NCBI RefSeq assembly: GCF_021044565.1
Contig: NZ_CP087997.1
Location: forward strand, 1,798,001-1,862,000
Length of the DNA: 64,000 nucleotides
Direction: 5' to 3'
From: Subtercola endophyticus
GTDB lineage: Bacteria; Actinomycetota; Actinomycetes; Actinomycetales; Microbacteriaceae
The notes under the pieces are model-generated. The model was given only the letters and a program-made list of their open reading frames with translations, was not told the DNA's origin and did no database searches. The translations under genes and the position numbers were made by a program. Shown here one piece after another: positions 42,726 through 61,652 of this stretch (positions are counted from its first letter, which is position 1; each line of letters opens with the position of its first letter).

Positions 42726-42737
42726 GACACAATCCTA

Positions 42738-42896: not shown

Positions 42897-42977
42897 GCGC
42901 GGTGGTTTGGCGAAGGCGCGGTGGTTTGGCGCACGCGCGGTGGTTCGAACTACCGCGGATGCGCCGAACTACCGCGC
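42897..42977. repeat. 19-bp-periodic palindromic element, copy 1
   Basis: Half-unit GCGGTGGTT in three direct copies whose GCGC starts lie at 42897, 42916 and 42935, then two inverted copies with AACTACCGC at 42948 and 42967: 19-bp steps on both sides of a TTCGAA centre (42944-42949). Spacer GGCGCA pairs with TGCGCC. The element ends 10 bp from the stop codon of the minus-strand flavoprotein gene. Confidence 0.85.
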
Positions 42978-42987
42978 GGAGAGGGGC

Positions 42988-44442
42988 TCAGCGCCCGGGG
43001 CGCAGGTCGGGGGCGCGGCGGATGCCGAACGAGGTGGCGAGCGCACGCCGGGCCGCGTGCCAGCCGCCGAGGCCGTGCACGCCCGGACCGGGCGGCGTCG
43101 ACGACGAGCACAGGTACACCCCGCGCATGGGCGTCTGCCACGGGTACGGCGACAGCGTCGGCCTCCGCACGAGCTGGCGGAACGTCGCCGCCCCGGCCGA
43201 GATGTCGCCCCCCACGTAATTCGGGTTGCCCTGCTCTTCTTCGACCGCGGTGCGCCCCGACGTCGCGACGATGGTGTCGCGAAAACCCGGCGCGAACCGT
43301 TCGATCTGCGCGATGATCGTCTCCGACTGATCGACGTCGCTTCCGCTCGGCACGTGCGTGTAGGCCCACAGAACGTGCGCCCCCTCCGGCGCCCGCGACG
43401 AGTCGATGATGCTCGGCTGCGCCACCAGCACGTACGGCCGCTGGGCGTGCCGGCCCGACGCCACCATCGCCTCACTTCGGGCGATCTGGGCGTGCGTGCC
43501 GCCGACGTGCACGGTTCCCGCCGACCGCAGCGCCTCGTTCGCCCAGGGCACCGGGTCGCTGAGCGCGAGGTCGAGCTTGGCGACGGCGTTGCCGTACCGA
43601 AACCGGCCGAGGCTGCGGGCGTACCCGCGCGGAATGCGATCCCCGCCGAGAGCGAGCAGCGCCTTCGGGGTCACGTCGAGTAGTACGACACGCGCGGGTG
43701 GCAGCTCGTCGAGAGAGGTTATCTCGGTCTGAGTGACAATTTCGCCGCCGTGGGCGAGCAGATCATCCGCCATCGCGTCGACGATCGCCTGACTGCCCCC
43801 CACCGGAACCGGCCAGCCCACCGCGTGCGCCAGGCTGCCCAGAAGAAGCCCGGCGGCGGCCGGGGCGAGCCCGGGCAACGGAAGAATCGAGTGCGCCTGC
43901 ACGCCGCTCAGCAGGGAGGGCGCGATGTCGCTCTCGAACCGCAGACTCCAGAGCGGGCTGCCCTGCTCGAACGCTCGCAGCCCGAACCGGGCGGCGAGCC
44001 CGGGATGCCGCGGCACCCGCAACAGCGAGGTTCCGGTGAACTGCGCGAGCTCTTTCCAGTGCGAGACGAGGGGCTCGAACAGGCGCTTCCACGCGGGGCC
44101 GTCGACCCCGAGCATCCGTGCGGTCTCGTCGATGCTCTGGTAGGCCAGGCCGGCGCGGCCGCCGTCGAGTGGATGCCCGTAGGCGAGTTCGGGCGTACGC
44201 AGCTCGATGCGCGACTCGAGGTCGAAGCGGCGAAAGAACTCCGACGCGAGGGCCATCGGATGCACGGCAGAACACACATCGTGCAGATAGCCCGGCAGCG
44301 TGAGTTCCGCGGTGCGCGCTCCCCCGCCGATGGTGTCGGCGCGCTCGTACACGCGCACTGCGAGACCGGCCCGGGCCATGGTGACGGCGGCCGCCAGCCC
44401 GTTAGGCCCGGCTCCGACCACGACGACATCCACTGAGTCCAT
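42988..44442 (-). CDS. Phytoene dehydrogenase-like FAD-dependent oxidoreductase
   Basis: 484 residues. VDVVVVGAGPNGLAAAVTMARAGLAVRVYERADTIGGGARTAEL is the FAD Rossmann motif of the amine oxidase/CrtI superfamily; VPVGGSQAIVDAMADDL and the C-terminal GVYLCSSSTPPGPGVHGLGGWHAARRAL complete the cofactor site. No carotenoid genes are nearby, so a carotenoid role is not supported; many actinobacteria carry this NAD(P)/FAD paralogue with unknown substrate. ATG at 44442 has CATACT 6 nt upstream. Confidence 0.88.
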   Translation of the reverse strand: MDSVDVVVVGAGPNGLAAAVTMARAGLAVRVYERADTIGGGARTAELTLPGYLHDVCSAVHPMALASEFFRRFDLESRIELRTPELAYGHPLDGGRAGLAYQSIDETARMLGVDGPAWKRLFEPLVSHWKELAQFTGTSLLRVPRHPGLAARFGLRAFEQGSPLWSLRFESDIAPSLLSGVQAHSILPLPGLAPAAAGLLLGSLAHAVGWPVPVGGSQAIVDAMADDLLAHGGEIVTQTEITSLDELPPARVVLLDVTPKALLALGGDRIPRGYARSLGRFRYGNAVAKLDLALSDPVPWANEALRSAGTVHVGGTHAQIARSEAMVASGRHAQRPYVLVAQPSIIDSSRAPEGAHVLWAYTHVPSGSDVDQSETIIAQIERFAPGFRDTIVATSGRTAVEEEQGNPNYVGGDISAGAATFRQLVRRPTLSPYPWQTPMRGVYLCSSSTPPGPGVHGLGGWHAARRALATSFGIRRAPDLRPGR

Positions 44443-44552
44443 ACGTTCAGTATGCTCTGCCCACGGCACCCCTCCGAGGGGTTGTCAAGCCCTAGTCGAA
44501 GCAGCACAGAGGTGGTTGTCTGACACTAAGCACCTAACCGAAGGAGGTTGAT

Positions 44553-44894
44553 GTGACTATCGAACTGACTCCGCGGGCCGCAGCCCCGATCACCGATCTC
44601 ACCGGGCTCATCGCGAGCCCGTCTGCACGTACGGCACGCCGGGGCAACGACGCCCCGCACGCCGCAGACATTCGCATTTCGATTCTCTCCGACCACGAAT
44701 GGCGCATCTGCGACCGTCGTATTCCCGAAAACAACGCCGAGTGTGTTCTCGGCTACATCGATAAGACCGCCGGGCTCTACGAAGTCATGAAGCTCTCCTC
44801 GACCCATAACCTGCTGTATTACTCGGACTTCGAGCAGGCGATCAGCAGTTTCACGTCGCAGGTCAAGCCCGCTGCCGTCGGGCGCGTCTTCTAG
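44553..44894 (+). CDS. Hypothetical 113-residue protein
   Basis: No family recognised. 113 residues, soluble, no signal or membrane helix. The N-terminal 35 residues look disordered; the core (IRISILSDHEWRICDRRIPENNAECVLGYIDKTAGLYEVMKLSS ... LYYSDFEQAISSF) is mixed alpha/beta with aromatic residues, two Cys and a DHEWRICD segment. AAGGAGG stands at optimal distance before the GTG, the best ribosome site in the window, suggesting strong translation. It is divergent from the flavoprotein and convergent with a membrane protein gene. Confidence 0.8.
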   Translation: MTIELTPRAAAPITDLTGLIASPSARTARRGNDAPHAADIRISILSDHEWRICDRRIPENNAECVLGYIDKTAGLYEVMKLSSTHNLLYYSDFEQAISSFTSQVKPAAVGRVF

Positions 44895-44905
44895 GCGGTA
44901 GCTCG

Positions 44906-46258
44906 CTAACCGTAGAGCGGGCCGTTGTTCGCGAAGCGCGGTTCTATCGGCGCTGGGGCTCCCGCCCCCGGGTCGGTCGTCGCCTGGCCCGGGTTGAGAA
45001 TCACCCGCTGGCCTTCACCCGTGTGCAACAACATGCTGAGGTAGGGGTTGGTGTACGTCCAGCCGTAGATGTGGGTGCGCTCCACGGGCAGCGTTGTGGA
45101 GTCGAGGGCTGTCAGGCCGCCCTGTTGCACGGTGACGGCATCGAACTGGGCGAGCCAGTGCGTGAACGCTTCTGTTCGGTACGCGAACGGAATGCTCAAG
45201 GCCACGAGCAGCGCGAGGGCCGCGATCGAGAGCGACCGGGAATCGGGTTTCGCACGCGGCCGGACTTCGCGAAATCCGACGCAGAGCAACACCACGAAGA
45301 GGGCTACACCGGCGAGGGCTCGAGACGCGTAGTGCATCCACGGTTCCGGCCACGGCACGGCGACAACGATGAACAGGCATCCTGCGACCATCAGAACCGT
45401 GCCGATGCGCTGCACCAGTGGCGGCGCGAACAGCCAGAGCACCACGAAAAGACCCGCGACGAGCAGCGAGTAGCCGAAGGCCTGGTCGTAGTGAAGCGGA
45501 TACAGAACATCTGCGGCGCTGCCGAAATTGCTCGCGTCGCGCGGGAACAGAATCCAGTAGGTGCTGTACACCACGGCGAGCCCGTAGGTGCCCACGAGCA
45601 TCCAGAACCAGGGTCGACCGAGCGCCCGGCGGTGGATGATCGCCAGCACGATGAGCGCCGGACCGAGATACACGAGCGATTCGTACGAGGCGATCAGCAC
45701 GACCGCAGAGAGCAAAAGCGCCACGCGGGCAACCGGATGCCCGGGGGCGGCGATGATCAGCGCGGCACTCAAGGCGACCAGCCCGTAGGCGAGGTTGTAT
45801 TCGCCGACCGAGATGAAGCCGGAGTTGAGAAAGGTGACGGCGAAGGCGACCACGAACATCCAGAACGACCGTTTTCGCCGCAGAACGAGCAAGGCCACCG
45901 CCCATAAGAGCACAGGAAGAGCGCCGGTTCCGAAACTCTCGATGCGCGCCAGGGTCGGAACGTCTCGCACGCCGGCCGTGATAGCGCCCAGCAGCGGCGC
46001 TTGCGTCACCAGCTGTGCGAGAAACCTCGACGGATAGAGAAAGAAGGAGCCGGAGCTGAGCACCGACCAGAGGTAGAAGCTGCCGTCGGCGACGAGCCCG
46101 CGCGCCGCCCACACGCTCTGCGCGGCGAGAACGACGAGAACGGCCACCGCGCCGAAACGTGCCGATCGCTCGATTCGTGTCGACAACCGCTGCTCGTTCT
46201 CGCCGCGGTCGCCGCGAGTTCGAGTCATCGGCGAGTCGTCGAACGTCACGCTGGTCAT
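44906..46258 (-). CDS. Multi-pass membrane protein of unknown function
   Basis: 450 residues. About 40 hydrophilic residues, then some 10-11 hydrophobic helices up to residue 355, then a soluble tail (FAYRTEAFTHWLAQFDAVTVQQGG ... LHTGEGQRVILNPGQATT). The layout resembles membrane glycosyltransferase-type or Gtr-like proteins with a C-terminal external domain, but I see no catalytic motif. Divergent from the beta-helix exoprotein gene with 72 bp between, so a common surface-polymer role is possible though unproven. Confidence 0.8.
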   Translation of the reverse strand: MTSVTFDDSPMTRTRGDRGENEQRLSTRIERSARFGAVAVLVVLAAQSVWAARGLVADGSFYLWSVLSSGSFFLYPSRFLAQLVTQAPLLGAITAGVRDVPTLARIESFGTGALPVLLWAVALLVLRRKRSFWMFVVAFAVTFLNSGFISVGEYNLAYGLVALSAALIIAAPGHPVARVALLLSAVVLIASYESLVYLGPALIVLAIIHRRALGRPWFWMLVGTYGLAVVYSTYWILFPRDASNFGSAADVLYPLHYDQAFGYSLLVAGLFVVLWLFAPPLVQRIGTVLMVAGCLFIVVAVPWPEPWMHYASRALAGVALFVVLLCVGFREVRPRAKPDSRSLSIAALALLVALSIPFAYRTEAFTHWLAQFDAVTVQQGGLTALDSTTLPVERTHIYGWTYTNPYLSMLLHTGEGQRVILNPGQATTDPGAGAPAPIEPRFANNGPLYG

Positions 46259-46330
46259 CTGATCCCCACAGTCAGGTATCTGAATACTCTACTGAGGGGA
46301 ACGCCCTCCGAACGCCCTAGGCTCGAAGCC

Positions 46331-47656
46331 ATGGACGATGACCGGGCCGCCCGCAAACAGTCGCGTCGCGGCATGCTGGCCGGACTCGTGGGGCTGGCCG
46401 TCGGGGTGGTCGCAATTCCTCAGGCGGCCGACGCAGCAGCCGGGTCTGCCGCGGCCGGGCCGTCGCGCTCGTCGGCCCTCGGCTGGGACGTGACTGACGC
46501 AGCCTTTGGAGCCGTCGCCGACGGAGTCGCCGACGACACGTCTTCTATTCGTAGCGCACTGAAGGCGGCTGGCATCGCCGGGGGTGGAACCGTCACTCTG
46601 CCCGCCGGAACCTACCGAGTGTCGTCGAAGCTCATCGTGCCCCCGGGCGTCACCGTCTCGGGCGCAAGCAAGTACGGCAGTACCGTCGCCACCTCCAGCC
46701 CCAGCTCCGGCGTGTTCGTTCTGCAGAACGCATCGGGCATCACGAATCTGCAGATCACCTCGTCGGTCGCCCAGACCTCGGGCGTCACGATCGACATTCG
46801 AGGCAGCTCAGCCTTCGTCGACAACTGCCAGATCACCCAATACTTCGTTGCCATCTCGGTCGGCACTCCCGAGGCCGGCCGTGTGGTGGGCTCTCGTATC
46901 TCTGACGTCAATCTCTATGGTCCGAGCATCCGCAGCGGGGCGGGAGCCATTCAGTTTCTGCACTACTCGAGCTTTCAAGTGACGGGTTGTGTGGTCGCCG
47001 GGCCGGATGCCGGAACCCAGCCGTCGTTCGGAATCCGGATTCGCAACGGCGACACCGGAACCATCTCTGACACGAACATCACCAAGCACGGGCGTGCGCT
47101 GCAGATCGACACTCCCGCGGGCGAGAAGAGTTTCGCCATTCACGCGTCGAACTCGCTCTTCGACTCGGCGGGCCGAACAGCCGACGGGGTGACCGTCAGC
47201 TCGGCCGAGATCTCTCCCGCGGGAGAGGTCTACGACACGAAATTCTCGAATTGCTGGTTCGGTCTGTCGACCGATCAATCGGGATGCACGGTAGCCCCTA
47301 CCTCGGCCGGACTCGTCGACGGGCTCACGTTCACCGGCTGCGAGTTCGTCGGCAACGCCGACTCGGGGCTCCGTTGTGTCGGAACAGGCGTGCGCAACTG
47401 GCTGGTCACGGGCGGGTACTCGTCGGGTAACCGCAGTGCGGGCATCCACTCTGCCGACGCCTGCGGCAGCTTCACGATCAGCGGGCACCGCGCCGGCCCG
47501 AGCGGCAACTTCGGCCCGAACCGCTGGGGAATGGTGATCGATTCGGGTGCCGACCAGTACGTCGTGGTGGGCAACAACCTCATCGGCAACACCGCAGGGT
47601 CGCTGTTCGACGGCGGCAGCGGGCCCGCGACAGTGATCGCCAACAACCTCGTCTGA
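46331..47656 (+). CDS. Secreted right-handed beta-helix (pectate-lyase-like) protein
   Basis: 441 residues. Twin-arginine-like signal (SRRGMLAGLVGLAVGVVAIPQAADA), then DVTDAAFGAVADGVADDTSSIRSALKAAG, the N-terminal motif of pectate-lyase-3/phage-tailspike beta helices, then repeated strands rich in Gly/Asn/Ser (ISDTNITKHG, FSNCWFGLS, FTGCEFVGN, VVGNNLIGN). Probably a polysaccharide-binding or -cleaving exoprotein; catalytic residues cannot be pinned. TAGGCT lies 7 nt before the ATG. Confidence 0.83.
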   Translation: MDDDRAARKQSRRGMLAGLVGLAVGVVAIPQAADAAAGSAAAGPSRSSALGWDVTDAAFGAVADGVADDTSSIRSALKAAGIAGGGTVTLPAGTYRVSSKLIVPPGVTVSGASKYGSTVATSSPSSGVFVLQNASGITNLQITSSVAQTSGVTIDIRGSSAFVDNCQITQYFVAISVGTPEAGRVVGSRISDVNLYGPSIRSGAGAIQFLHYSSFQVTGCVVAGPDAGTQPSFGIRIRNGDTGTISDTNITKHGRALQIDTPAGEKSFAIHASNSLFDSAGRTADGVTVSSAEISPAGEVYDTKFSNCWFGLSTDQSGCTVAPTSAGLVDGLTFTGCEFVGNADSGLRCVGTGVRNWLVTGGYSSGNRSAGIHSADACGSFTISGHRAGPSGNFGPNRWGMVIDSGADQYVVVGNNLIGNTAGSLFDGGSGPATVIANNLV

Positions 47657-47697
47657 GCGCTTTTCGATGCGGCGCCCACACCCGCTACATTGTGTCT

Positions 47698-48654
47698 ATG
47701 GATGACCAGACGTGGGCACGCACGCCGATCGAACCGCAGAGCGTCAACGCTCCCCTCTCGACTGCCGCGATCTTTCTCGTGGTCACGATCAACGAGGGCG
47801 ACGAAGCCGCTGCGACGGCTCGCGATGTGATCTCCGACATCGGCGGACTGGTGCGCGCCGTCGGCTTTCGCGACCTGGGCGGGCACCTGTCGTGCAACGT
47901 GGGAATCGGGGCATCCGCCTGGTCACGCTTCGGCCAGACCTCGAAGCCGGGCCAGCTCGACCGGTTTCATGCGATTCCGGGGTTCAAGCACACGGCGCCG
48001 GCGACCCCGGGTGATCTGCTCTTTCACATCAGGGGCGAGCGGCCCGACCAGTGCTTCGAACTCGAACGGCTGCTGCTGGGCAAGCTCGGCTCCGCAGTGA
48101 CAGTCGAAGACGAGGTGCAAGGCTTCCGTTACTTCGACTCGCGCGACCTGCTGGGTTTTGTCGACGGAACAGAGAACCCCACGGGCGCCTCGATGATGCA
48201 GGCCTCGCTCATCGGCGACGAAGACCCCGACTTCGCCGGCGGCAGCTACGTGGTGGTGCAGAAATACCTGCACGATCTCACAGCCTGGGGCGCGCTCAGC
48301 ACCGAGCAGCAAGAGGCCATCATCGGCCGCACCAAGGCCGACAACGTCGAGCTCGATGACGACGCCGCGCCGCGCAAGTCGCACAAGTCGCTGAATACGA
48401 TCGTCGACGAGCAGGGCGTCGAGCATGACATTCTGCGTGACAACATGCCGTTCGGCCGGCCGGGTCAAGGCGAATTCGGCACCTACTTCATCGGATACGC
48501 CAAGAATCTCTGGGTGATCGACCACATGCTGCGGCGCATGTTCATCGGCGACCCGGTGGGCGACTACGATCGCATTCTCGATTTCTCGACCGCGGTGACG
48601 GGGTCGACGTACTTCGTTCCGTCGAACGACGTGCTCGAGGGCCTGGCCCCGTGA
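47698..48654 (+). CDS. Dye-decolorizing (DyP-type) heme peroxidase
   Basis: 318 residues. GFVDGTENP near residue 152 is the GxxDG motif holding the distal Asp; SHKSLNTIVDEQGVEHDILRDNMPFG supplies the proximal heme His and the distal Arg. No Tat signal, so cytoplasmic, and it may be an encapsulin cargo, though no encapsulin gene is near and the C-terminus (DVLEGLAP) is not an obvious targeting tail. TACATT lies 6 nt before the ATG at 47698; a GTG two codons earlier is less likely. Confidence 0.93.
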   Translation: MDDQTWARTPIEPQSVNAPLSTAAIFLVVTINEGDEAAATARDVISDIGGLVRAVGFRDLGGHLSCNVGIGASAWSRFGQTSKPGQLDRFHAIPGFKHTAPATPGDLLFHIRGERPDQCFELERLLLGKLGSAVTVEDEVQGFRYFDSRDLLGFVDGTENPTGASMMQASLIGDEDPDFAGGSYVVVQKYLHDLTAWGALSTEQQEAIIGRTKADNVELDDDAAPRKSHKSLNTIVDEQGVEHDILRDNMPFGRPGQGEFGTYFIGYAKNLWVIDHMLRRMFIGDPVGDYDRILDFSTAVTGSTYFVPSNDVLEGLAP

Positions 48655-48722
48655 TCGGGCGGCACTCGGCGCTTGCCGAACGTCGAGCTTAGCGTCAGCT
48701 TCAGCGCACTAAACTCCTCAAC

Positions 48723-50162
48723 ATGGATGAGCCCGCAACCTCGCCGCAGCACGACCCGCTCATCGGTTCGCTGCGCCGCGCGGTCGAGGCCTCGCCCGGC
48801 GACATCCATCTGCGTCTGCTGCTCGGCCAGTTGCTGCTGAAGGCGGGGTCGGCGGGTGATGCCATCGCGCAGGCCGCGAGCATCCTGCAGCTGGCGCCCG
48901 GCAACGCGGATGCCCGGCAGCTCATGACCGAAGCGTTCGCCGCCCCGGCCGTCGCCGTCGCGGCAGAGCCCGTAACCGCTGAGCCCATCACGTCTTCTGA
49001 ACTCGTAGGCCCGCTTGCCACCAGCGTGCCGACTGCGGCCGAACCGGTCTCGCCCGACCCCGCCGAGCAGGCTGCTCCCAGCCCCGAAGCCCTCGAAACC
49101 CCCACCTCGCCCGACCCCGCCGAGCACGCGGCACCAGGCCCAGAAGCCCCCGAAACCCCCACCGCCCCCGAGCCGCCGGCCAGTGCCGAGCCCGACTTCG
49201 ACTGGAGCGCCGCCGAGAACGACGTGCACGAACTGGCCCAGCCGATGTTCGTCGACTCCGCCCCCACCGTGGCGCCCGGATCCTCGTTCGACATTGAGCG
49301 TTTTGTCATCACCCTGGCCGATGTCGGCGGCATGAAGGCCGTCAAAGACCGGCTCAACGCCGCCTTTCTCGCTCCGCTGAAAAATCCCGAACTGCGAAAG
49401 CTCTACTCGAAGAGCCTCAAGGGCGGCCTGCTCATGTACGGCCCTCCCGGCTGCGGCAAGACGTTCATCGCCCGCGCCATCGCCGGCGAACTCGGCGCCC
49501 ACTTCTTGAACATCGGCCTGGCCGACATACTCGACCCCATGCTCGGCAACAGCGAGCAGAACGTGCACGAAGCGTTCGAGCTGGCCCGGCGCGAGGCCCC
49601 GTGCGTGATCTTCTTCGACGAGATCGACGCCCTCGGCCAGCGCCGCAGCCAGACCCGCAACAGCGCGCTGCGCGGCACCGTGAACCAGCTGCTCACCGAG
49701 CTCGACGGCGTGGCCGACCAGAACGAAGGCGTCTTCGTGCTCGCGGCCACGAACCAGCCGTGGGACGTCGACCCGGCCCTCCGCCGCCCCGGCCGGTTCG
49801 ACCGCACCGTGCTGGTGCTGCCGCCCGACGAAGAGGCGCGCGAGTCGATCTTTCGCTACCACCTGCAGCACCGGCCCGTCGAAGGCATCGAGCTGCAGGC
49901 TCTCGCCCGGGCATCCGCGGGACTCTCAGGCGCCGATATCGCCTACGTGTGCGAGGTGGCGGCGGAGCACGCGCTCATCGACAGCGCGAGCACGGGCGTG
50001 CTGCGCATGATCGGCATGAAAGACGTGACCGATGCGCTCTCTGAAGTCACCGCGTCGACCTCGAGCTGGCTCGACAGTGCTCGCAATGTGGTGCTCTTCG
50101 GCGACGACGACGGCACCTACGCCGAGCTGAAGGCGTACCTCAAGAAGGCCAAGCGGCTGTGA
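48723..50162 (+). CDS. AAA+ ATPase with N-terminal TPR segment
   Basis: 479 residues. Residues 8-70 form two TPR-like helix pairs (LIGSLRRAVEASPGDIHLRLLLGQLLLKAG); 75-160 are Pro/Ala/Glu repeats, partly tandem (SPDPAEQAAP, SPDPAEHAAP); then a Cdc48/FtsH-type AAA+ domain: GPPGCGKT (about 240), CVIFFDEIDAL, sensor ATNQPWDVD, arginine fingers RRPGRFDR, and a C-terminal lid. It has no peptidase domain. TAAACT is 7 nt before the ATG. The next gene, 43 bp on, is a TPR membrane protein, so the two probably form one module. Confidence 0.88.
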   Translation: MDEPATSPQHDPLIGSLRRAVEASPGDIHLRLLLGQLLLKAGSAGDAIAQAASILQLAPGNADARQLMTEAFAAPAVAVAAEPVTAEPITSSELVGPLATSVPTAAEPVSPDPAEQAAPSPEALETPTSPDPAEHAAPGPEAPETPTAPEPPASAEPDFDWSAAENDVHELAQPMFVDSAPTVAPGSSFDIERFVITLADVGGMKAVKDRLNAAFLAPLKNPELRKLYSKSLKGGLLMYGPPGCGKTFIARAIAGELGAHFLNIGLADILDPMLGNSEQNVHEAFELARREAPCVIFFDEIDALGQRRSQTRNSALRGTVNQLLTELDGVADQNEGVFVLAATNQPWDVDPALRRPGRFDRTVLVLPPDEEARESIFRYHLQHRPVEGIELQALARASAGLSGADIAYVCEVAAEHALIDSASTGVLRMIGMKDVTDALSEVTASTSSWLDSARNVVLFGDDDGTYAELKAYLKKAKRL

Positions 50163-50205
50163 CACGCGCGCGGCCGGCAGCAGCACTCCCGAGCGGGGGT
50201 GCACG

Positions 50206-51291: not shown

Positions 51292-51436
51292 GTTTCTCAG
51301 TTTCTGAACAGCTGAAGAGCTGAAGAGCCGAGCATCCGCCCGGCGCGGCGCAGCTTATTCATAGACTTGCCCTCTACGGTCGGGGGTTGTACCGAAACGG
51401 CCGCGCAGCGGCGGCCGCGATAAACGAGGAGTTTTC

Positions 51437-52372: not shown

Positions 52373-52449
52373 CCCGGGCTCCTAGCTCCGAAGGGCGGCG
52401 CACAGCGCGCTTTCACCCAACGACAAGCGAGATGCGGCACAGTGGAGGC

Positions 52450-52899: not shown

Positions 52900-52937
52900 G
52901 GGTCACCGAGGGTCGCTGGCGGCCCGCCTCAGCGAGG

Positions 52938-54515
52938 TCAGACCAGCCCGTATCGGGCGGCGGCAGCTTCCGCTTCTTCGCGATTCGCGACGCCCAGCTT
53001 GCGGTAGACACTGCGCAGCTGCGACTTGATGGTGTTGTGGCTCACCTGAAGTGTGGCGGCGATGTCGGCGACGGATGCGCCGCGGCGCAGTTCCGCCAGC
53101 ACCGACCTCTCACGGGGTGAGAGCGGCGCGATCGTGATCGGCGCCGGCGCGAAAATACCGCGCTCCAGCGCCTGCTCGACGACCTCACGACCGCCCGGAA
53201 TCGTATCGAAGTCGATCAACGACGCGAGCCGCGCGAGATCACCCCGAGAGATCACCGTCAACACCGTGAGCAGTCCGTCACGCACGACGGAGTGCACGAC
53301 GCGTTCGAACACCTGAACGGCCCGCTCGTCGTCGCCGGCGTGCATCGCGCACACGGCATTCACCAGCAGCGCGGAAGCCAGTGGCGCGAGTCGAGCGTCG
53401 TCGAGGGCGATCAGCGCGGCGGCGAACCGACCGGCGGCCGCGTCATCTGCCGCGACGAGTTCGATGGCCGCCTGCTCCACGAGCATCGATTGTGAGAAGC
53501 GCTTCTGCGAGGTCAGGTACCCGGTCACGATCTGCCGCGCCCGATCAGGGTGCTGCAGTGCCAGATGCGCCTGCACGCGGGCTCGAGTGAGCACTTGGGC
53601 GTTGAGCCCCGACTCGCTCAGTGCCGGCGGGTTTCGCTGCACTGCGCTCGCGATCGAGCTGAGCAGCTCTCGCGCCTGCCAGGCGTCGCCCACCAGCCGG
53701 CTGCGCAGAAACAGTTCCACCGCCCAGTACTCCGGCGACAGAGTGACGTCGACATCGGAATCCAGAATCTCGGTCGCCTCGGCATAACGAAGCTCGCCGT
53801 AAAGCAGTAACACTCGGGCGAAGTGCGCCGTCGTGGCGTTGCGCGTTCCCTGCCAGCTCTCCGCGGCGGGCATGCGGCCCAGCCACGACCGTGCTTCGTC
53901 GAAATAGCCCGACAACGCCGAAAGCCACGCGAGTGCGCCGGCGGCCTTGGCCGTCACGAGCTCGTCACCGGCCACCACCGCGAGGTCGTAGGCGTCGCGG
54001 TATTCCCGATACGCCGCAGGACCTTGGGCTGCGAACTCTCGCGCCTTTCCCCAGTGGAAGACGAGTTCGGGCAGCGCCGGCTGCAGTTGCTTCAGCACGT
54101 CTTCGGTGGCGTCGGTCAACACCTCGCGCGCTTCATCCACGCTCTCGGCGGCAAGCACGAACTGGCCCGCCGAGCGCCGGGCGCCGCTACGGCTGGTCAG
54201 GCGGGCGAGCACATCGAGCAGGGCTTCCGGATGCCCTGCCGCGGCCTGATCTCGAAATTGCACCGGGCGCGGTGCGTCACCCGAGGGAATGAACTCGACG
54301 TAGCTGCGAGCGGCCGCAAGCCGCGGATTCTCGGCGATCACCACGGGCGGCAGGGCCGCGAGCGCCGTGCGCAGCACGGCGATGTCGGCCGCCATGATGC
54401 TCGACCAGTGCTGCTCGATCAGGTCGACCGCGTCGGCCCATCGCCCGGCGTCGACGGCTGAAGCCAATTGCTCGGCCCGATCGTCTTGCGGTCGACCCAC
54501 ACCGTCATTCCCCAC
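52938..54515 (-). CDS. LuxR family transcriptional regulator with long helical sensor region
   Basis: 525 residues. The C-terminal HTH (LSPRERSVLAELRRGASVADIAATLQVSHNTIKSQLRSVYRKLGVANREEA) is a LuxR/NarL motif. The preceding 450 residues are all-helical and TPR/MalT-like but without a P-loop, so this is not a full LAL/MalT ATPase regulator. GTG at 54515 is chosen because CATAAT lies 6 nt upstream, predicting a leaderless mRNA; the frame continues open to 54650. Target genes unknown; VanZ is convergent and the SGNH hydrolase gene lies directly upstream on the same strand. Confidence 0.85.
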   Translation of the reverse strand: MGNDGVGRPQDDRAEQLASAVDAGRWADAVDLIEQHWSSIMAADIAVLRTALAALPPVVIAENPRLAAARSYVEFIPSGDAPRPVQFRDQAAAGHPEALLDVLARLTSRSGARRSAGQFVLAAESVDEAREVLTDATEDVLKQLQPALPELVFHWGKAREFAAQGPAAYREYRDAYDLAVVAGDELVTAKAAGALAWLSALSGYFDEARSWLGRMPAAESWQGTRNATTAHFARVLLLYGELRYAEATEILDSDVDVTLSPEYWAVELFLRSRLVGDAWQARELLSSIASAVQRNPPALSESGLNAQVLTRARVQAHLALQHPDRARQIVTGYLTSQKRFSQSMLVEQAAIELVAADDAAAGRFAAALIALDDARLAPLASALLVNAVCAMHAGDDERAVQVFERVVHSVVRDGLLTVLTVISRGDLARLASLIDFDTIPGGREVVEQALERGIFAPAPITIAPLSPRERSVLAELRRGASVADIAATLQVSHNTIKSQLRSVYRKLGVANREEAEAAAARYGLV

Positions 54516-54570
54516 GACCTCATTATGGTACGAGAGCCGAGCCCTAGGCGCACAAACGCGAGAATCGGGT

Positions 54571-55842
54571 TCAGCGACGCTGCGCCCGCTGCTTTCTCTG
54601 CACGACGAGAACGCTGAGGCCGGCACCGAGGAACAGCAGTGCCAGAACACCCGTGCCCGCGAGGAACGGCTCGGAGAGACCGGTCGCGGCGAGCGAGGTC
54701 GAAGCCGCGAGGGCCGTCGTTGTGGGCGTCGTCACCGGAACGACGATCGCCGGGTCGGTGACGGTCGGGGTGGGAGTAGGAGTGAGGGTGGGTGTGGGAG
54801 GCGTCACCGTGGCGGGAAACGCGGCCGCGATGATCGGCTCGGTGGTTGCAGCCATGAAATCCACACCGGCGGCGTTCGGGTGCAGTGACTTCTCGTCGAT
54901 GACGGGCGATCCGGTGGCGAACGACACATCGACGCCGTTGACGTACGGCGTGCTGTCGCAGGCGCTGTGGCCGGTCGAGTCTTCGAACGTCGGAACGTAG
55001 GTGAAACCCGACGCGGTCGAGAGCGACTTCACGAGGGCGGCGAGGTTGGTCTCGATAGTGTGCAAGAAGGGCGTCGGCGGCGTGGTGTCGTCACCGACCA
55101 CATCGGCGTCGGTGAACGGAAAGCTGTTCAGCTGGGTGATCGGCGAGAAGCAGTTGGAGGCGCCGAAGGCCGGCGCGATGGTCGGGTAGCCCAGCACGAA
55201 GATCTTGGCGTTGGGGGCGGAGGCCTTGACCGCCTCGTATGTCTGCGCGAGCGCCGTTTGGATGTCGGCGAAGCTCGCGGTGATCTGCGGGCCGAGGAAC
55301 GACTTGCAGTTGTTCTGCGCCGGCTCGAGCAGAAGCGGCCCTGCCGCCGTGGCCGCCGCACAGGCGCCAGCCACTTGGGTGAACTTCAGGTTGTTACCAC
55401 CGACGGTCAGCGTCACGATGTCGGTGCTGGCGCTCAGCGCCGTTATCTGCGGCGGAACACTCGTGGTCCTCGTTCCGTCCGTGACTGTCTGATTCTGGGT
55501 GGTGATGTTGTTGGCTGTTGCACCCGCGCACGTCACGTCGGTGAGGTTCAGGTCGAGGGCCGCAGCGAGCTGATGCGGATAGTTGTTCGACGACTGCCCG
55601 CAGCCGGCCGCGGGCTGGTCGGTCTGCGGGTCGACGCCGAGCCCCGACGAGTAGGAGTCCCCGAGCGCCACGTAGTTCAGCCCGGCGGTCGGCAGCGCGG
55701 CCGGGTCGACTGCGGCCGCGGTGCTCGCGCTGGCAGCGGCGGCAGGCACAACGATGAGCCCCGCGACAGCGACGGCCGAGACCACTATTCCCCACCGTTT
55801 CGCCCGGCCCATGCGGATTCGACTCGCCTGTGATGAAGTCAT
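54571..55842 (-). CDS. Secreted SGNH/GDSL hydrolase with LAATG cell-wall sorting signal
   Basis: 423 residues. Signal peptide (AVAVAGLIVVPAAAASAS), then block I GDSYSSG (catalytic Ser), block III GGNN, and a C-terminal EKSLHPN with the catalytic His; the Cys pattern (CGQSSNNYP, CAGATANN) follows Streptomyces-type esterases. A Thr/Pro linker leads to LAATG, a hydrophobic helix and a basic tail RKQRAQRR, matching class E sortase substrates (LAxTG). AGGAAC precedes the ATG. Likely a wall-anchored lipase or acetyl-esterase. Confidence 0.9.
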   Translation of the reverse strand: MTSSQASRIRMGRAKRWGIVVSAVAVAGLIVVPAAAASASTAAAVDPAALPTAGLNYVALGDSYSSGLGVDPQTDQPAAGCGQSSNNYPHQLAAALDLNLTDVTCAGATANNITTQNQTVTDGTRTTSVPPQITALSASTDIVTLTVGGNNLKFTQVAGACAAATAAGPLLLEPAQNNCKSFLGPQITASFADIQTALAQTYEAVKASAPNAKIFVLGYPTIAPAFGASNCFSPITQLNSFPFTDADVVGDDTTPPTPFLHTIETNLAALVKSLSTASGFTYVPTFEDSTGHSACDSTPYVNGVDVSFATGSPVIDEKSLHPNAAGVDFMAATTEPIIAAAFPATVTPPTPTLTPTPTPTVTDPAIVVPVTTPTTTALAASTSLAATGLSEPFLAGTGVLALLFLGAGLSVLVVQRKQRAQRR

Positions 55843-55919
55843 GGTGTTCCTCGTCTGAAAAGGAGCGGGTGCTCGTGGCAGGGCTGTCGCCTGCCGGTAC
55901 ATCTCGGGGTGCCCAAACA

Positions 55920-57281
55920 CTACCAGCGAAAGGCCCGGCCGTGGTGGCTTTCGGGGAGGTGCGCACCGGCCCCGAACATCCGTTCGCGAAGCGTTTGACC
56001 GGAATGTTCGGCAGGTGCCAAGCCGCGTGCACGGAGCACCGGCAGAATCAAGTCGATGAAGTCGTCATACGTTGCAGGTGTCAAATGCGGCTGAATCAAG
56101 AATCCGTCGGCGCCCGTTGCCAAAACGAACGCTTCGATCTGGTCGACCACGTCGTCCGGCGTGCCGACGAAGACGCTGCCGTTGATGCCCGTGGTACGAA
56201 AGTTCTCCAGAATGTCGCGCACCAGAGGTGCAGGGGTGCCGTCTTTGGCGAGATAACGTTCGAGGTTGCTCTGCCCCATTTCGGTGCTGGTCTGCGCGAG
56301 CGGCTTGTCGGGGTCGAGGGCCAGCAGGTCGACGCCCGTGTTGCCCGCATAGATCGCCGCCGCGCCCTCCTTGGTCGACATCGACAGCATTTCGTCGTAC
56401 TTCGCCACCGCCTCGGCGTGTGTCGGTGCGGTGATGAACAGGGCGCCGACGAGCAACTTGATCGAATCCGCGTCGCGACCCTGCGCGACGGCGCTCTCGC
56501 GAATGCCGGCGACATTCTTCGCCACCACCACCGGGTCGCCGCCGGCCAAGAAGACGGCTTCGGCATTGCGCCCGGCGAACTGCCGGCCCCGGCCCGAAGC
56601 ACCCGCCTGCACGAGCAGCGGCGTGCGTTGCGGCGAGGGCGGAACGTTCAGCAGCCCGTCCGTGCGAAAGTACTCACCCTCGTAGTGCACCACCCGCACC
56701 TTGTCGGGGTCGGCGTAGAGGGCGGCCGCCTTGTCGAGCACGAGGGCGTCGTCTTTCCACGAGCCCTCCCACAGGGCGAGGTTCACGTCGACGTATTCGT
56801 CGGCCATGTCGTACCGCAGGTCGTGCGAGATGAGATCTTTTCCCATCAGCGCGGCCGCGGTCGCTCCCGACGAGCCGGTCACAATGTTCCACCCGATGCG
56901 GCCGTCGGTGAAGTGGTCGAGCGTGGCGAAGCGTCGGGCGTTCGCGGCGGGAGGCTCCACCGTGGTCGAGGTGGTGAGAATGAACCCGAGATCGCTCGTC
57001 ACGGCCGCCATGGCGGTGATGATCGGCATCGGATCGCCGTGCGGTATGCCGCGCCCCTCGCGCACCGAGGCATCGATCAGCTCACCGTCGAGGGCGGGGT
57101 AGCCGTAGCTGTCGGCGAGAAACAGAAAATCGAAGTTCGCTGCTTCGAACTTCTGCGCCAACTCGGTCCAGTGGCGGATGCTCAGAAACTCAGCCGAGGT
57201 GTCGGAGGGGTGTTGCCAGGCCGAGCCGATGGTTCCGTTGGGGCCGATGTACTGAAAGATGCCGAGAATGAGCGGGTTCAT
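55920..57281 (-). CDS. LLM-class flavin-dependent monooxygenase (NtaA/SnaA/DszA family)
   Basis: 453 residues. TIM-barrel flavoprotein: SAWQHPSDTSAEFLSIRHWTELAQKFEAANFDFLFLAD, FATLDHFTDGRIGWNIVTGSSGATAAALMG, RTPLLVQAGASGRGRQFAGRNAEAVFLAG. These are the NtaA-type signatures; members oxidise chelators, sulfones or pristinamycin using reduced FMN from a partner reductase not seen here. ATG at 57281 fits the family start. Upstream are four 8-bp CGACAG repeats in the gap to the divergent ABC exporter. Confidence 0.9.
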   Translation of the reverse strand: MNPLILGIFQYIGPNGTIGSAWQHPSDTSAEFLSIRHWTELAQKFEAANFDFLFLADSYGYPALDGELIDASVREGRGIPHGDPMPIITAMAAVTSDLGFILTTSTTVEPPAANARRFATLDHFTDGRIGWNIVTGSSGATAAALMGKDLISHDLRYDMADEYVDVNLALWEGSWKDDALVLDKAAALYADPDKVRVVHYEGEYFRTDGLLNVPPSPQRTPLLVQAGASGRGRQFAGRNAEAVFLAGGDPVVVAKNVAGIRESAVAQGRDADSIKLLVGALFITAPTHAEAVAKYDEMLSMSTKEGAAAIYAGNTGVDLLALDPDKPLAQTSTEMGQSNLERYLAKDGTPAPLVRDILENFRTTGINGSVFVGTPDDVVDQIEAFVLATGADGFLIQPHLTPATYDDFIDLILPVLRARGLAPAEHSGQTLRERMFGAGAHLPESHHGRAFRW

Positions 57282-57326
57282 GCATCCATCTACCCACACA
57301 GACATTTCGGGCAGGTGTCGACGGAT

Positions 57327-57358
57327 CGACAGCTCGACAGTTCGACAGTTCGACAGCG
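57327..57358. repeat. Four tandem 8-bp CGACAGNN units between divergent genes
   Basis: CGACAGCT, CGACAGTT, CGACAGTT, CGACAGCG. They lie 46 bp upstream of the monooxygenase start and 78 bp upstream of the ABC exporter start. Candidate binding array for a shared regulator or a slippage tract. Confidence 0.6.
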
Positions 57359-57435
57359 AATCGATCACCGTCACGCGTCACGCGCAATTGGGCCCGAATA
57401 GTTCGCAAGGCTAACGACCGACGTACAATCGAGTG

Positions 57436-60400
57436 ATGTCTGCCGAGCCCGAATCCCCCGCACCTCTGGGCTGGTTGCGCCGCCTCTGGCAGTACATGAC
57501 GCGTCATCGCCGCAGTCTGTACCTGTCGCTTGCAGCAGCTCTGCTGGGCAGCGCCTGTCAGGTGGTTGTGCCGCTCGTGGCCCGGCAGATCGTCGACAAC
57601 GTCATTCTGGTTCAGGATGCCCCTCTGCTGCCCTGGCTCGGGTTGCTGCTCGCGTTGTCGGCCGCCGTCTTCTTCTTCGCCTACGTTCGCCGTTACCGCG
57701 GTGGTGAGGTCGCCCTCGAGGTGCAGAACGACCTGCGCAATGACATGCACGACCACCTGCAGTCGATGGACTTCGCGAGCCTCGACCGCATGTCGACCGG
57801 CCAGCTGGTGTCGCGCGCGAACTCCGACTCCACTCTCGTGCAGAGCCTGCTGAACATGCTGCCGCTGATGAGCGGCAACGTGATTCTGATGGTGCTGTCG
57901 CTCGTGGTGATGTTCATCTTGTCGTGGCCGCTGGCGCTCGTGGCGCTGGTGGTCACTCCCCTGCTCGTGCTCATCTCGTACCGCATGCGCAATCGGGTTT
58001 TTCCGGCCACGTGGGATGCCCAGCAGCGCGAGGGCGAGGTCGCCGAGATCGTCGACGAAGACGTCAACGGCGTGCGCGTGGTGAAGGCGTTCGGGCGCGA
58101 GAAGCTCGAGGTCGAGCGCATGGTGGAGGTGTCGAGCACCCTCTACGGTTCGCAGATGCGAGCGGTGCGCATCCAGTCGCGGTACCAGCCACTGCTCGAG
58201 GCGGTGCCGGTGCTCGCGCAGGTGGCAGTGCTGGCGTTCGGCGGCTGGCTGGCGCTGAACAATCAACTCACGCTCGGTACGTTTCTGGCGTTCTCTGCCT
58301 ATGTGGCGCAGCTCATGGCGCCGGCACGCATGCTGGCCGGCGTGCTGACCATCGGCCAGCAGGCGCGAGTGGGCATCGAGCGCATCTTTCAGCTGCTCGA
58401 TCGGCCGCCCGCAATTGTGGATGCGCCCGACGCTGTTGCGTTGCCGGCCGCAGCCGGGGGCCGCATCGATTTCGACGGGGTGACGTTCGGGTACGACCCC
58501 GGGCATCCGGTGCTCGACGGCTTCGACCTGCACATCGAGCCGGGCGAGCGCGTCGCGCTGGTCGGGGCCAGCGGAAGCGGAAAATCGACCGTCGCCGCCC
58601 TCATCTCGCGCTTCTACGACCCACTCGCCGGCTCGGTGAGCGTCGAAGGGGTCGACGTTCGGCATGCGACCCTGTCTTCGCTGCGCGGCTCGGTCGGCGT
58701 GGTCTTCGAAGAGAGCTTTCTGTTCTCCGACTCGGTGCGCTCGAACATCGCCTACGGCCGGCCTGATGCGAGCGACGACGAGGTGATCGCCGCGGCGCGC
58801 ATCGCTCAGGCCGACGGGTTCATCGATCGGCTCCCCCGCGGTTACGACACCGTGGTCGGCGAGCGCGGGCTCAGCCTCTCGGGGGGCCAGCGACAGCGCA
58901 TCGCGCTCGCCCGCGCGATTCTGTGCGACCCGCGAATTCTGATTCTCGACGACGCCACCAGCGCCATCGACGCGAAAACCGAAGAGCTCATCCACGATGG
59001 CTTGAGCCACACGCTCTCGAACCGCACCGTGCTGCTCATCGCGCACCGCGAGTCCACGCTGCACCTGGCCGACCGCATCGTGCTGGTCGAGCACGGGCGC
59101 GTCGCCGACCACGGCACGCACGACGAGCTGCGCGAGCGCAACGCGACCTACCGCGGGCTGCTCTCGGGCCTCGACGACGAGACGCGCGCGGCTGTTGCAG
59201 ATGGCCGCATCGAGGTTCTGGCCGACCTCACGGCCGATGGCACCTCTCTGGCCGAAGCGGAGTGGGAGCTCGCGAACGGCGAGTTCGACGCGCCGGCGGA
59301 TGCCCGGGCATCCACTTCGGCCGCGGCTACCTCGCCGAGCCGCAACCGCTCTGGCTTCAGTGGCGCGGCCTCGGGCGGCGCAAGCGGCGGCGGCGGCGAG
59401 GGCGAAGCAGGCGGCGCAGGCGGTGGCGCCGCGACATCGAGCGCCGGCACTCCCCGCCCGCGCACCGTCACCGGCCGGGCCAGTCTCGGCGCCGGACTCG
59501 GCGGGCGCGGGGGCGGCCGCGGCGGCGGCGCGGGCATGGCCTCGTTCCTCGCGCCCACGCCCGAGCTGCTCGCCAACGTGGCGAAGCTGCCGCCCGTGCG
59601 TGACATTGCCACCCTCGACGTCGAGCACGAGACCACGCACGACAAGCGGTTCAGTCTGCTGCGGCTGCTGAGCGAATTCCGTCGCCCGCTCGCGCTCGGG
59701 CTCGTGCTGGTGGTCATCGATGCGGTCGCCGGGCTGCTCGGCCCGGTACTCGTGAAGACCGGCATCGACGACGGTGTGCAGGCGGGCTCTGCGGCGGTGC
59801 TCTTCGCGGCATCCGGGCTCTACCTGCTCGTGACCCTCGCCGACTTGCTCGACGAGGTGGCTTCGACATTCGTCACCGGGCGTATCGCCCAGCGCGTGAT
59901 GCTCTCGCTGCGCATTCGCATCTGGTCGCAACTGCAGCGGCTGTCGCTCGACTACTACGAGCGCGAGATGGCCGGGCGAGTGATGACCCGCATGACCACC
60001 GACGTCGACCAGTTCGAGTCGCTCATTCAGAACGGTCTGCTCTCGGCGCTCGTCTCGGTCGTGACCTTCGTGGGCGTCGGCATCGCGTTGCTGACGGTGA
60101 ACTTCGAGCTCGGGTTGTGCACGCTCTCGGTGGTGATTCCGCTGGCGATCGCCACCGTGTGGTTCAGGCAGCGCTCGTCGAAGCTCTACGACGTATCGCG
60201 CGAGCGCATCGCCATCGTCAACGCCGACTTTCAAGAGAGCCTCTCGGGCGTTCGCGAGTCGCAGGCGTTCACGCACGAGGCCGCGACCATGGCACGCTTT
60301 CACGGGCTCGGCCGCAACTACCTGCAGTCGCGCATCGCGGCGCAGAAGCTGGTGGCGACGTACTTTCCGTTCGTGCAGTTCTTGTCGGGCGTGGCCGACG

Positions 60401-61464
60401 TCATCGTGCTCGGCGTGGGCGCCGGGCTCATCGCGTCGGGTGAGCTGAGTTCGGGCGCGCTGATCGCGTTCATCCTCTACATCGACATGTTCTTCTCCCC
60501 CATTCAGCAGCTGTCGCAGGTGTTCGATTCGTGGCAGCAGACGCGCGTGTCGGTGGGGCGCATCTCCGACCTGATGGCACTCGAGACGCTGACACCCGAG
60601 GCCGAGCATCCGGTTGTTCCCGGGCGGCTGTCGGGCGCGCTCACGCTCTCGAACGTGCGGTTCGCCTACCCCTCGGCGCCACTCGTGCGCGCGGGCGGTT
60701 CGTCTGCCCCGCTGCTCGGGCCGTCGGATGCCCGGCCGATCATCAGCGAAGATGCCACCTTCACGAAGCCTCCCGAGGCGCTGCGCGGCATCGACCTGCA
60801 CGTTGCCCCTCGCGAGACGCTCGCGCTCGTCGGCGAGACCGGTGCCGGAAAGTCGACCGTGATGAAGCTGCTGGCGCGCTTCTACGACGTGGATTCGGGC
60901 CAGGTGCTGGTCGACGGAATGGATGTTCGCAGCCTCGACCTCGTGGCCTTCCGCCGCCAGCTCGGTTACGTGCCGCAGGAGGCGTTCTTGTTCACCGGAA
61001 CCGTGCGCGAGAACATCGCCTACGGACGGCCCACCGCCTCGCTCGCGGAGGTGCAGGCCGCCGCGCGCGCGGTCGGCGCGGACGAGTTCGTCGCGCAGCT
61101 GACCGATGGCTACGAGCACGAGCTCACCGAGCGCGGGCGCTCGCTCTCGGCGGGGCAACGTCAGCTGATCGCACTCGCGCGTGCGCAGCTGGTCGACCCG
61201 GCCATCCTGCTGCTCGACGAGGCGACCTCGAACCTCGACCTCGCCACCGAATCCCGCGTGACTGCTGCGATGCAGCGCGTGTCGGAGGGGCGAACCACCA
61301 TCGTGATCGCGCACCGCCTGCAGACCGCACGGGCGGCCGACCGCATCGCCGTGCTGCACGACGGACGCATCGCCGAGGTCGGTTCGCACGACGAACTCCT
61401 GGCCGCCGGTGGCCGCTATGCCACCATGTGGCAGGCCTTCGAGGTCGCCGAGCGCCCCGCCTGA
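57436..61464 (+). CDS. Single-chain ABC exporter (two TMD-NBD halves fused)
   Basis: 1342 residues, twice a normal half-transporter. Half 1: six membrane helices, Walker A GASGSGKST (about 377), signature LSGGQRQR (about 480), Walker B ILILDDATSAID, where Asp replaces the catalytic Glu. A Gly/Ser/Arg linker of about 100 residues follows. Half 2: six helices, GETGAGKST (about 1133), LSAGQRQL (about 1236), LLLDEATSNLD with Glu intact. The degenerate Walker B and the degenerate signature belong to the same composite ATP site, as in heterodimeric exporters such as TM287/288. TACAAT lies 6 nt before ATG. Likely a drug or lipid exporter. Confidence 0.93.
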   Translation: MSAEPESPAPLGWLRRLWQYMTRHRRSLYLSLAAALLGSACQVVVPLVARQIVDNVILVQDAPLLPWLGLLLALSAAVFFFAYVRRYRGGEVALEVQNDLRNDMHDHLQSMDFASLDRMSTGQLVSRANSDSTLVQSLLNMLPLMSGNVILMVLSLVVMFILSWPLALVALVVTPLLVLISYRMRNRVFPATWDAQQREGEVAEIVDEDVNGVRVVKAFGREKLEVERMVEVSSTLYGSQMRAVRIQSRYQPLLEAVPVLAQVAVLAFGGWLALNNQLTLGTFLAFSAYVAQLMAPARMLAGVLTIGQQARVGIERIFQLLDRPPAIVDAPDAVALPAAAGGRIDFDGVTFGYDPGHPVLDGFDLHIEPGERVALVGASGSGKSTVAALISRFYDPLAGSVSVEGVDVRHATLSSLRGSVGVVFEESFLFSDSVRSNIAYGRPDASDDEVIAAARIAQADGFIDRLPRGYDTVVGERGLSLSGGQRQRIALARAILCDPRILILDDATSAIDAKTEELIHDGLSHTLSNRTVLLIAHRESTLHLADRIVLVEHGRVADHGTHDELRERNATYRGLLSGLDDETRAAVADGRIEVLADLTADGTSLAEAEWELANGEFDAPADARASTSAAATSPSRNRSGFSGAASGGASGGGGEGEAGGAGGGAATSSAGTPRPRTVTGRASLGAGLGGRGGGRGGGAGMASFLAPTPELLANVAKLPPVRDIATLDVEHETTHDKRFSLLRLLSEFRRPLALGLVLVVIDAVAGLLGPVLVKTGIDDGVQAGSAAVLFAASGLYLLVTLADLLDEVASTFVTGRIAQRVMLSLRIRIWSQLQRLSLDYYEREMAGRVMTRMTTDVDQFESLIQNGLLSALVSVVTFVGVGIALLTVNFELGLCTLSVVIPLAIATVWFRQRSSKLYDVSRERIAIVNADFQESLSGVRESQAFTHEAATMARFHGLGRNYLQSRIAAQKLVATYFPFVQFLSGVADVIVLGVGAGLIASGELSSGALIAFILYIDMFFSPIQQLSQVFDSWQQTRVSVGRISDLMALETLTPEAEHPVVPGRLSGALTLSNVRFAYPSAPLVRAGGSSAPLLGPSDARPIISEDATFTKPPEALRGIDLHVAPRETLALVGETGAGKSTVMKLLARFYDVDSGQVLVDGMDVRSLDLVAFRRQLGYVPQEAFLFTGTVRENIAYGRPTASLAEVQAAARAVGADEFVAQLTDGYEHELTERGRSLSAGQRQLIALARAQLVDPAILLLDEATSNLDLATESRVTAAMQRVSEGRTTIVIAHRLQTARAADRIAVLHDGRIAEVGSHDELLAAGGRYATMWQAFEVAERPA

Positions 61465-61575
61465 CCCGCGCTTCCCTCGCCCTCCCCTTTCGCGCCCCGC
61501 CTGACCCGCGCGTCCCGAAGCCCTCGCCCTCCGAGCCCCGCCCTTCCCTCCCGCGCGTCGCCCGCGACCAGTTCT

Positions 61576-61652
61576 GCGGTGGTCTGGCGCACGTGCGGTG
61601 GTTCGGCTCTTCCGCGGTGGTTCGAACTACCGCGGAAGAGCCAAACTACCGC
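61576..61652. repeat. 19-bp-periodic palindromic element, copy 2
   Basis: Half-unit GCGGTGGT at 61576, 61595 and 61614, then inverted AACTACCGC at 61625 and 61644 around TTCGAA (61621-61626). Spacer GGCTCTTCC pairs with GGAAGAGCC. Sequence and geometry match copy 1 at 42897 while spacers differ. It overlaps the stop codon (TAG, complement of 61646-61648) of the amidohydrolase. Confidence 0.85.

Follow-up and report, generated by a model that had tools for sequence, protein, structure and literature searches.

The window analysed here is a 64,000-nt stretch of the Subtercola endophyticus genome (positions 1,798,001–1,862,000 of a single contig of 4,318,731 bases), and it contains two palindromic elements lying at the 3' ends of minus-strand genes, where the first-pass annotation of this DNA had placed them. 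Each consists of direct half-units at 19-bp steps, a TTCGAA axis and inverted half-units on the far side, a common design that was recognized at that stage and is confirmed here, with extents of 42899–42975 and 61576–61652 (Table 1). The half-unit GCGGTGGTT stands at 42899, 42918 and 42937 in element 1 and is faced by the inverted AACTACCGC at 42948 and 42967; element 2 begins with GCGGTGGTC at 61576, which differs by one base from the other half-units, and continues with GCGGTGGTT at 61595 and 61614 and inverted AACTACCGC at 61625 and 61644. The inverted halves of both elements complement GCGGTAGTT rather than GCGGTGGTT, which leaves a G/A asymmetry. The TAG within this GCGGTAGTT half-unit serves in element 2 as the amidohydrolase stop codon (61646–61648). 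The start of the oxidoreductase gene next to element 1 was taken from our own gene caller, as was the orientation of the genes around all elements of this genome.

Table 1. Palindromic elements of the window, their component units and the flanking genes.
Feature	Position	Strand	Description
Element 1	42899..42975		three left and two right half-units (the centre's two counted) around TTCGAA
Element 1, L2	42899..42917	+	left 19-bp unit, GCGGTGGTTTGGCGAAGGC
Element 1, L1	42918..42936	+	left 19-bp unit, GCGGTGGTTTGGCGCACGC
Element 1, L0 + R0	42937..42956		centre, GCGGTGGTTCGAACTACCGC
Element 1, R1	42957..42975	-	right 19-bp unit, complement of GCGGTAGTTCGGCGCATCC
Element 2	61576..61652		three left and two right half-units (the centre's two counted) around TTCGAA
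Element 2, L2	61576..61594	+	left unit, GCGGTGGTCTGGCGCACGT
Element 2, L1	61595..61613	+	left unit, GCGGTGGTTCGGCTCTTCC
Element 2, L0 + R0	61614..61633		centre
Element 2, R1	61634..61652	-	right unit, complement of GCGGTAGTTTGGCTCTTCC; last half-unit with the neighbouring gene's TAG stop
FAD-dependent oxidoreductase	42988..44442	-	flanking gene; stop 12 bp from element 1
ABC transporter	57475..61464	+	flanking gene, convergent with the amidohydrolase
Amidohydrolase	61646..63463	-	flanking gene; stop overlaps element 2

At least 40 such elements, those of the window included, form a family scattered over the 4.32-Mb genome; the axis is whole in 38 and interrupted by an insertion sequence (IS) in two. 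The 38 were drawn from the listed matches of genome pattern searches and represent a lower bound. Half-units GCGGTNNTT within 19-bp units (GCGGTNNTTYGGCGCNNNC) face the TTCGAA axis and are followed by inverted half-units, with a spacing of 19 bp in 116 of 130 successive same-strand half-units lying less than 40 bp apart. Across the whole genome, a 30-base unit-dimer pattern with up to two mismatches yielded 117 matches (56 + 61) compared with 0 + 0 for its reversed control, and a centre pattern at the same tolerance matched 37 places, 31 of them in the element list, compared with none for the reversed controls. Besides the two half-units of the centre, 1–7 flanking units are present on the left and 0–5 on the right, a unit occurs on both sides in all elements but one (37/38), and the commonest left:right counts among the 38 are 1:1 (11), 1:2 (9) and 2:1 (7). 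No chromosomal clustering of the elements was detected (Kolmogorov–Smirnov P=0.26). In 20 of the 38 the centre is polar, reading GTGG/CTACC in either direction; all nine polar centres between '--' gene pairs point one way and those between '++' pairs give no mirror image (2 vs 1), and no gene-direction bias is claimed.

Letters are kept unevenly along the unit. Among 127 flanking units G1 C2, T8 T9 and G11 G12 are retained in 124–127, positions 6, 7 and 10 are variable and 16–18 are nearly free, a pattern as might be expected for sequence recognition, although partly produced by construction, since the kept positions contribute to the score by which units were accepted. The four axis bases are palindromic in all 38 copies, again partly by construction, and in 54 of 81 elements from other genomes. 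Tandem neighbours resemble each other, their three free bases matching in 82/156 cases versus 56.9 ± 5.5 in shuffled units (0 of 20,000 shuffles as high), whereas facing units are no more alike than shuffled ones over all 19 positions (P=0.47). New units therefore seem to arise next to existing ones, and complementarity between the arms seems not to be upheld pair by pair.

The first-pass annotation had described spacers that differ between the two window elements while remaining complementary inside each, and had taken this compensatory change as evidence that a hairpin is selected or copied. The description holds along the whole length of the facing spacers in element 2, but in element 1 only for GGCGCA/TGCGCC. 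Over 37 elements of the genome, the three free spacer bases of facing units match in 42/111 cases against 36.9 ± 4.8 when shuffled (P=0.17, or P=0.27 when the window element from which the idea arose is left out). In 36 elements, whole arms form 736/972 pairs against 742.9 ± 8.1 when arms are swapped between elements (P=0.82; spacers P=0.14), and for the inner half-units pairing even falls below that of swapped ones (P 0.007). Spacer complementarity above chance, by which the annotation had proposed to judge its own idea, is thus absent within this genome, and element-by-element compensation is rejected for S. endophyticus by the spacer and arm-swap tests; pooled signals elsewhere remain and are weighed below. 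Taken singly, eight of ten other genomes likewise show no arm pairing above swapped arms (P 0.42–0.87; G110, G370, G172, G341, G223, G009, G117, G070), the remaining two being G157 (P 0.04) and G310 (P 0.09). When species are mixed, 0/500 shuffles of 49 rows reach the observed pairing on four of five measures, and the 13 rows from other genomes form 265 pairs versus 240.8 (P<0.001; spacer columns 16–19, P 0.0016). Such signals in mixed or pooled rows are assumed to come from the mixture of species and subfamilies (G157, G310).

Relatives carry the same plan in other letters, and the first-pass reading of a recurrent family with rigid 19-bp geometry at gene 3' ends proved right. A loose geometry pattern recovered it in 6 of 299 family genomes (reversed control, 0). 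A covariance model (R1), built from 49 gap-free 58-mers of which 36 came from S. endophyticus and 13 from other genomes, matched 45 of 349 Microbacteriaceae genomes in 21 of 85 genera, six of the 45 having themselves supplied sequences to the model; at most 15 candidates were scored per genome, both strands counted, and E-values are rough. Matches were read in 19 of the 45 genomes (S. endophyticus included), in addition to its sister species and the doubtful G112. In these 19 the letters are mostly genus-specific, for example GCATCC-GCGCCCGTTCGGC in the g98 genomes, GCGAGC-GCGGTGTGTTGCT in G164 and GTGACG-GCTGTGGTTTGTC in G310, and variation appears to run species-wide rather than element by element. 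Because the arms change letters together between species, the palindrome is maintained or copied. The periodicity also extends beyond the model: when the 8 nt flanking the modelled 58 are compared with the sequence 19 bp further in, agreement over 81 elements from 19 other genomes is 0.58/0.57, as against 0.20–0.44 for the 19 other offsets between 10 and 29 (next best 25, at 0.44/0.43; the rest 0.20–0.35). A sample of the order gave model matches in 12 of 297 genomes and none in 285; among ten matching genomes from outside the family the plan was seen by eye in six (G421, G377, G393, G526, G440, G051) and partially in G447. Weaker model matches in G480, G559 and G400 (L269–L271) do not show it, nor does L146 of G112, a genome inside the family that is counted in the 45. 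Inspection by eye showed no 19-bp units at the exact-centre matches in Cupriavidus, Agromyces and Streptomyces or at a one-mismatch match in G049, and these were discarded.

Turnover was followed in the sister species G006, whose flanks are ~90% identical, and in the congener G005 (~80%). Twenty-eight loci were looked up in G006 by their flanks, the other 12 already having matches there, and 20 were resolved: both flanks served for 19 of them, one flank together with the model for 2234992. Eight of these sites have a model match in place and 12, window element 2 among them, do not; the count excludes a sub-threshold match in L275 (15 bits, E 0.33) that runs into the neighbouring coding sequence. 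At 53740, 402267, 566554, 686914, 1337474, 1567782 and 3237419, G006 has 0–46 bp where S. endophyticus has the element plus up to ~120 bp, and up to ~320 bp of flank at empty sites is also non-homologous. G006 does have window element 1, but in the spelling GCACACTTCGG...CCGAAGTGTGC, both arms being shortened by one base in the same way; the place of this element in the ten other congeners gave no model match, and one 22-bit match lies elsewhere in L218. At 496933, 1220230, 2234992, 2899624, 4118289 and 2182222, G006 has other letters with most pairs kept (19–24 of 26–27). For two of the nine G006 copies the division into arms was off by one base, which makes their low pair counts (13) meaningless. 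Over ten orthologues the conserved columns diverge at 24/240 versus 125/340 otherwise, a biased comparison in that 8/10 of the G006 copies were found by similarity, and within-element pairing amounts to 426 against 406 across species, mainly from two loci. None of the 13 loci resolved in G005 has a model match at the expected place. Positions are thus often shared and letters often not, and presence turns over. Two other structures were encountered during this comparison: a one-armed array of direct half-units at 19-bp step without inverted partner in G006 (L225, C65:38600–41100, at ~1250–1340), and, in G005 (L249 and L251), another hairpin repeat, GAGCCCGTTACGCCG...GGGCTCA-like, where S. endophyticus has the stepped palindrome.

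Location is equally characteristic. Elements of S. endophyticus are intergenic or just overlap a stop codon, and the 40 lie between 20 convergent, 19 tandem and one divergent gene pair, as compared with 22% convergent, 51% tandem and 26% divergent intergenic bases in this one window. For 81 elements elsewhere, some of them orthologous copies, the counts are 43 convergent, 34 tandem, three divergent and one unresolved. The nearest stop codon lies at a median of 19 bp elsewhere (n=78) and 39 bp in S. endophyticus (n=37), and in g98 genomes elements are often 8–30 bp from both stops. No generally recurrent neighbour gene was found when one member each of the largest similarity groups (9, 7 and 5 members) was scanned; these were an MFS protein, an ABC transporter and a DNA methylase, the last from a locus common to five g98 genomes. 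At this shared locus (L153, L156, L164, L178, L092) the element is flanked by an MFS gene on one side and, on the other, by one grouped with an N6/N4 DNA methylase, an assignment based on a Pfam scan of L153 only. In G157, three elements stand within ~440 bp between SpoIIM-like and DUF58 genes (L183:1220–1658). Leads to tRNAs and plasmids gave nothing, one of these searches covering a single neighbouring gene only. Close to element 1 in the window, a dispersed repeat of another kind occurs at 42734–42877 as two 70-bp copies, 74 bp apart and 96% identical, with two small hairpins each; it has relatives at position 903925 of the genome and at three places in G006.

The two split copies are interrupted at the axis by the same IS, whose copies (L064:2735–4171 and L065:2935–4371) are identical over 1437/1437 bases and inserted in opposite orientations. 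CGA of TTCGAA stands on both sides of each, an apparent 3-bp duplication as judged from junctions read by eye. These are the only copies in the genome, both at palindrome axes, and 11 congeners contain none apart from one 39-base match. The element belongs to the IS3 family, with an OrfB (NF033516, 191.3 bits, cut-off 160; rve) and a weak OrfA (30.7 bits).

The family may well be a dispersed extragenic DNA repeat resembling repetitive extragenic palindromic (REP) sequences, with half-sites read as DNA by a trans-acting protein; this is favoured with reservation, at a little short of even confidence. That the layout rather than the letters is common to the species suggests that something in the cell reads this layout as DNA. 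The functional unit would be a series of half-sites stepped at a constant 19 bp and oriented oppositely on the two sides of the TCGA axis, usually with at least two half-sites per arm over ~58–70 bp. A DNA-binding protein, possibly a transposase or a chromosome-binding protein, would read the half-sites at a 19-bp helical phase on double-stranded or extruded DNA, and the letters would follow its specificity in each species. Gain and loss of elements would be rapid, most survivors being located behind genes, and tandem duplication of 19-bp units would lengthen them, mostly on one side. A bolder form of this proposal, possible though doubtful, is that the geometry (19-bp step, two half-sites per arm, inversion at TCGA) is inherited across Microbacteriaceae and beyond, with the letters replaced across the genome, orthologous sites included, to keep pace with a rapidly changing DNA-binding protein other than RAYT, the transposase associated with REPs; the family would then be a new class of extragenic palindrome undergoing in-place concerted evolution. 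Several points weigh against recognition at the DNA level. The strong folding of the two window elements (z −4.1 to −8.1) and the location at 3' ends fit an RNA function as well, and for 73 elements pooled from 13 other genomes own arms pair slightly better than swapped ones (1544 vs 1514 ± 16, P=0.04; columns 10–15 P=0.005, outer half P 0.07, spacer P 0.12), so that a degree of element-wise pairing may exist. Among 22 neighbour proteins scanned (one gene twice), 16 belong to ordinary Pfam families, six have no match, and no cognate protein was found among them. At 11 empty G006 sites no common target-site duplication or constant end was seen by eye, and elements outside S. endophyticus were chosen by the model, which makes their conserved columns partly a matter of construction.

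These points bear on two rivals, each considered unlikely. Transcribed 3' hairpins, serving as bidirectional U-less terminators or as mRNA 3'-end stabilisers common to convergent genes, would account for the excess of convergent pairs, the proximity to stop codons here and in other genomes, the folding and the pooled pairing. However, a U-tract (at least 5 T in 8) follows the stem in 1% of 110 downstream tracts elsewhere and in 0/42 of S. endophyticus, and mispairs on the transcript strand of 51 elements between tandem genes comprise 69 G-U versus 96 A-C (28 vs 39 in S. endophyticus, P 0.22; 41 vs 57 elsewhere, P 0.13). For REPs, frequent G-T pairing has been taken as support for RNA function (PMC3733652, in the part available); the lack of a G-U preference here speaks against selection on an RNA hairpin, and DNA recognition is favoured over an RNA terminator because both the U-tract and a G-U excess over A-C are missing. 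Arm pairing maintained element by element would also be expected of such a hairpin and is not seen in S. endophyticus or singly in most other genomes, a hairpin has no need of the palindromic would-be loop, and some 40 sites do not make a general terminator of this genome. A miniature mobile element of the MITE (miniature inverted-repeat transposable element) or REPIN type, moved by a non-RAYT transposase whose binding sites are the half-sites and confined behind genes by what selection tolerates, is no less improbable a candidate. Empty versus filled sites between sisters, species-specific letters and many copies speak for it; on the other side, no autonomous partner with such ends occurs among the matches listed, no target duplication or fixed end was seen by eye at the empty sites, PF01797 is confined to genomes without elements, and several copies are orthologous in place. 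Finally, convergent GC-rich hairpins of high-GC genomes could merely resemble a family, given the differing letters between genera and the weaker matches without plan (L146, L269–L271), but this is very improbable indeed in view of the empty reversed-pattern controls, the 285 order-sample genomes without match and the 19-bp periodicity outside the model, and for S. endophyticus it is already refuted.

As a kind, the dispersed extragenic palindrome is already known, and the repeat described here is REP-like. REPs and REPINs with their RAYTs are likewise short, species-specific, many-copy extragenic palindromes between convergent or same-direction genes (PMC3116915, PMC2817692, PMC3733652), form hairpins as doublets and are targets of IS elements (PMC1525189), as far as the accessible parts of these sources go; the reported location mainly between same-direction and convergent genes comes from PMC3733652. 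In contrast, the family described here shows rigid stepping of direct half-units at 19 bp in each arm, a TCGA axis and one-sided arrays of up to seven flanking units, and it lacks the unpaired GTAG or CGTC end tag, GGTAG lying inside the paired arm in S. endophyticus and most other genera having other letters (by eye). The RAYT domain (Y1 transposase, PF01797) has no match in S. endophyticus and is found in only three of 349 family genomes (G021, G263, G293), none among the 45 bearing elements, while a positive control recovered it in 5 of 14 genomes; because of this absence from element-bearing genomes, RAYTs are unlikely as the partner, in agreement with a remark that Actinobacteridae carry only TnpA subclass 1.1 (PMC6006769, available part). 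CGTC-tagged REPs also apparently lack a dedicated transposase, but they are reported mostly from alphaproteobacteria and are 20–40 bp long, and the available part of PMC3733652 notes no 19-bp half-unit arrays for them. IS1397, ISKpn1 and ISPsy8, which target REP palindromes (PMC1525189, available part), parallel the present IS in family and in insertion into a repeated palindrome, here exactly at the axis; the present case differs in comprising just two identical copies in one genome, a 3-bp CGA duplication and a new target family. The GC hairpin just behind a stop codon is shared with intrinsic terminators, the U-tract is not. Plasmid iteron arrays with an inverted operator combine direct half-sites at a fixed phase of ~18–22 bp with inverted halves. 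The fixed phase is the likeness, whereas the present elements are dispersed over the chromosome behind unrelated genes.

The earlier statement that no named family has this geometry is borne out by Rfam, which gave no window match at gathering score and only sub-threshold microRNA-hairpin matches at the elements of L006 and L087, and by a literature search largely outside subscription journals, in which no described family of this kind in Microbacteriaceae was found. Descriptions of REP-type repeats come mostly from proteobacteria, with RAYT transposases as the explanation given. A high-GC actinobacterial family with a fixed step, species-specific spelling and no detected RAYT provides a clean comparative system for asking what in the cell reads extragenic palindromes and spreads them, and for what reason they come to lie behind genes, and constant geometry combined with species letters should make a co-varying protein findable. 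Relative to the known systems, the apparent novelty would lie in the way the half-sites are stepped, in an actinobacterial range with no RAYT detected and in the change of spelling in place.

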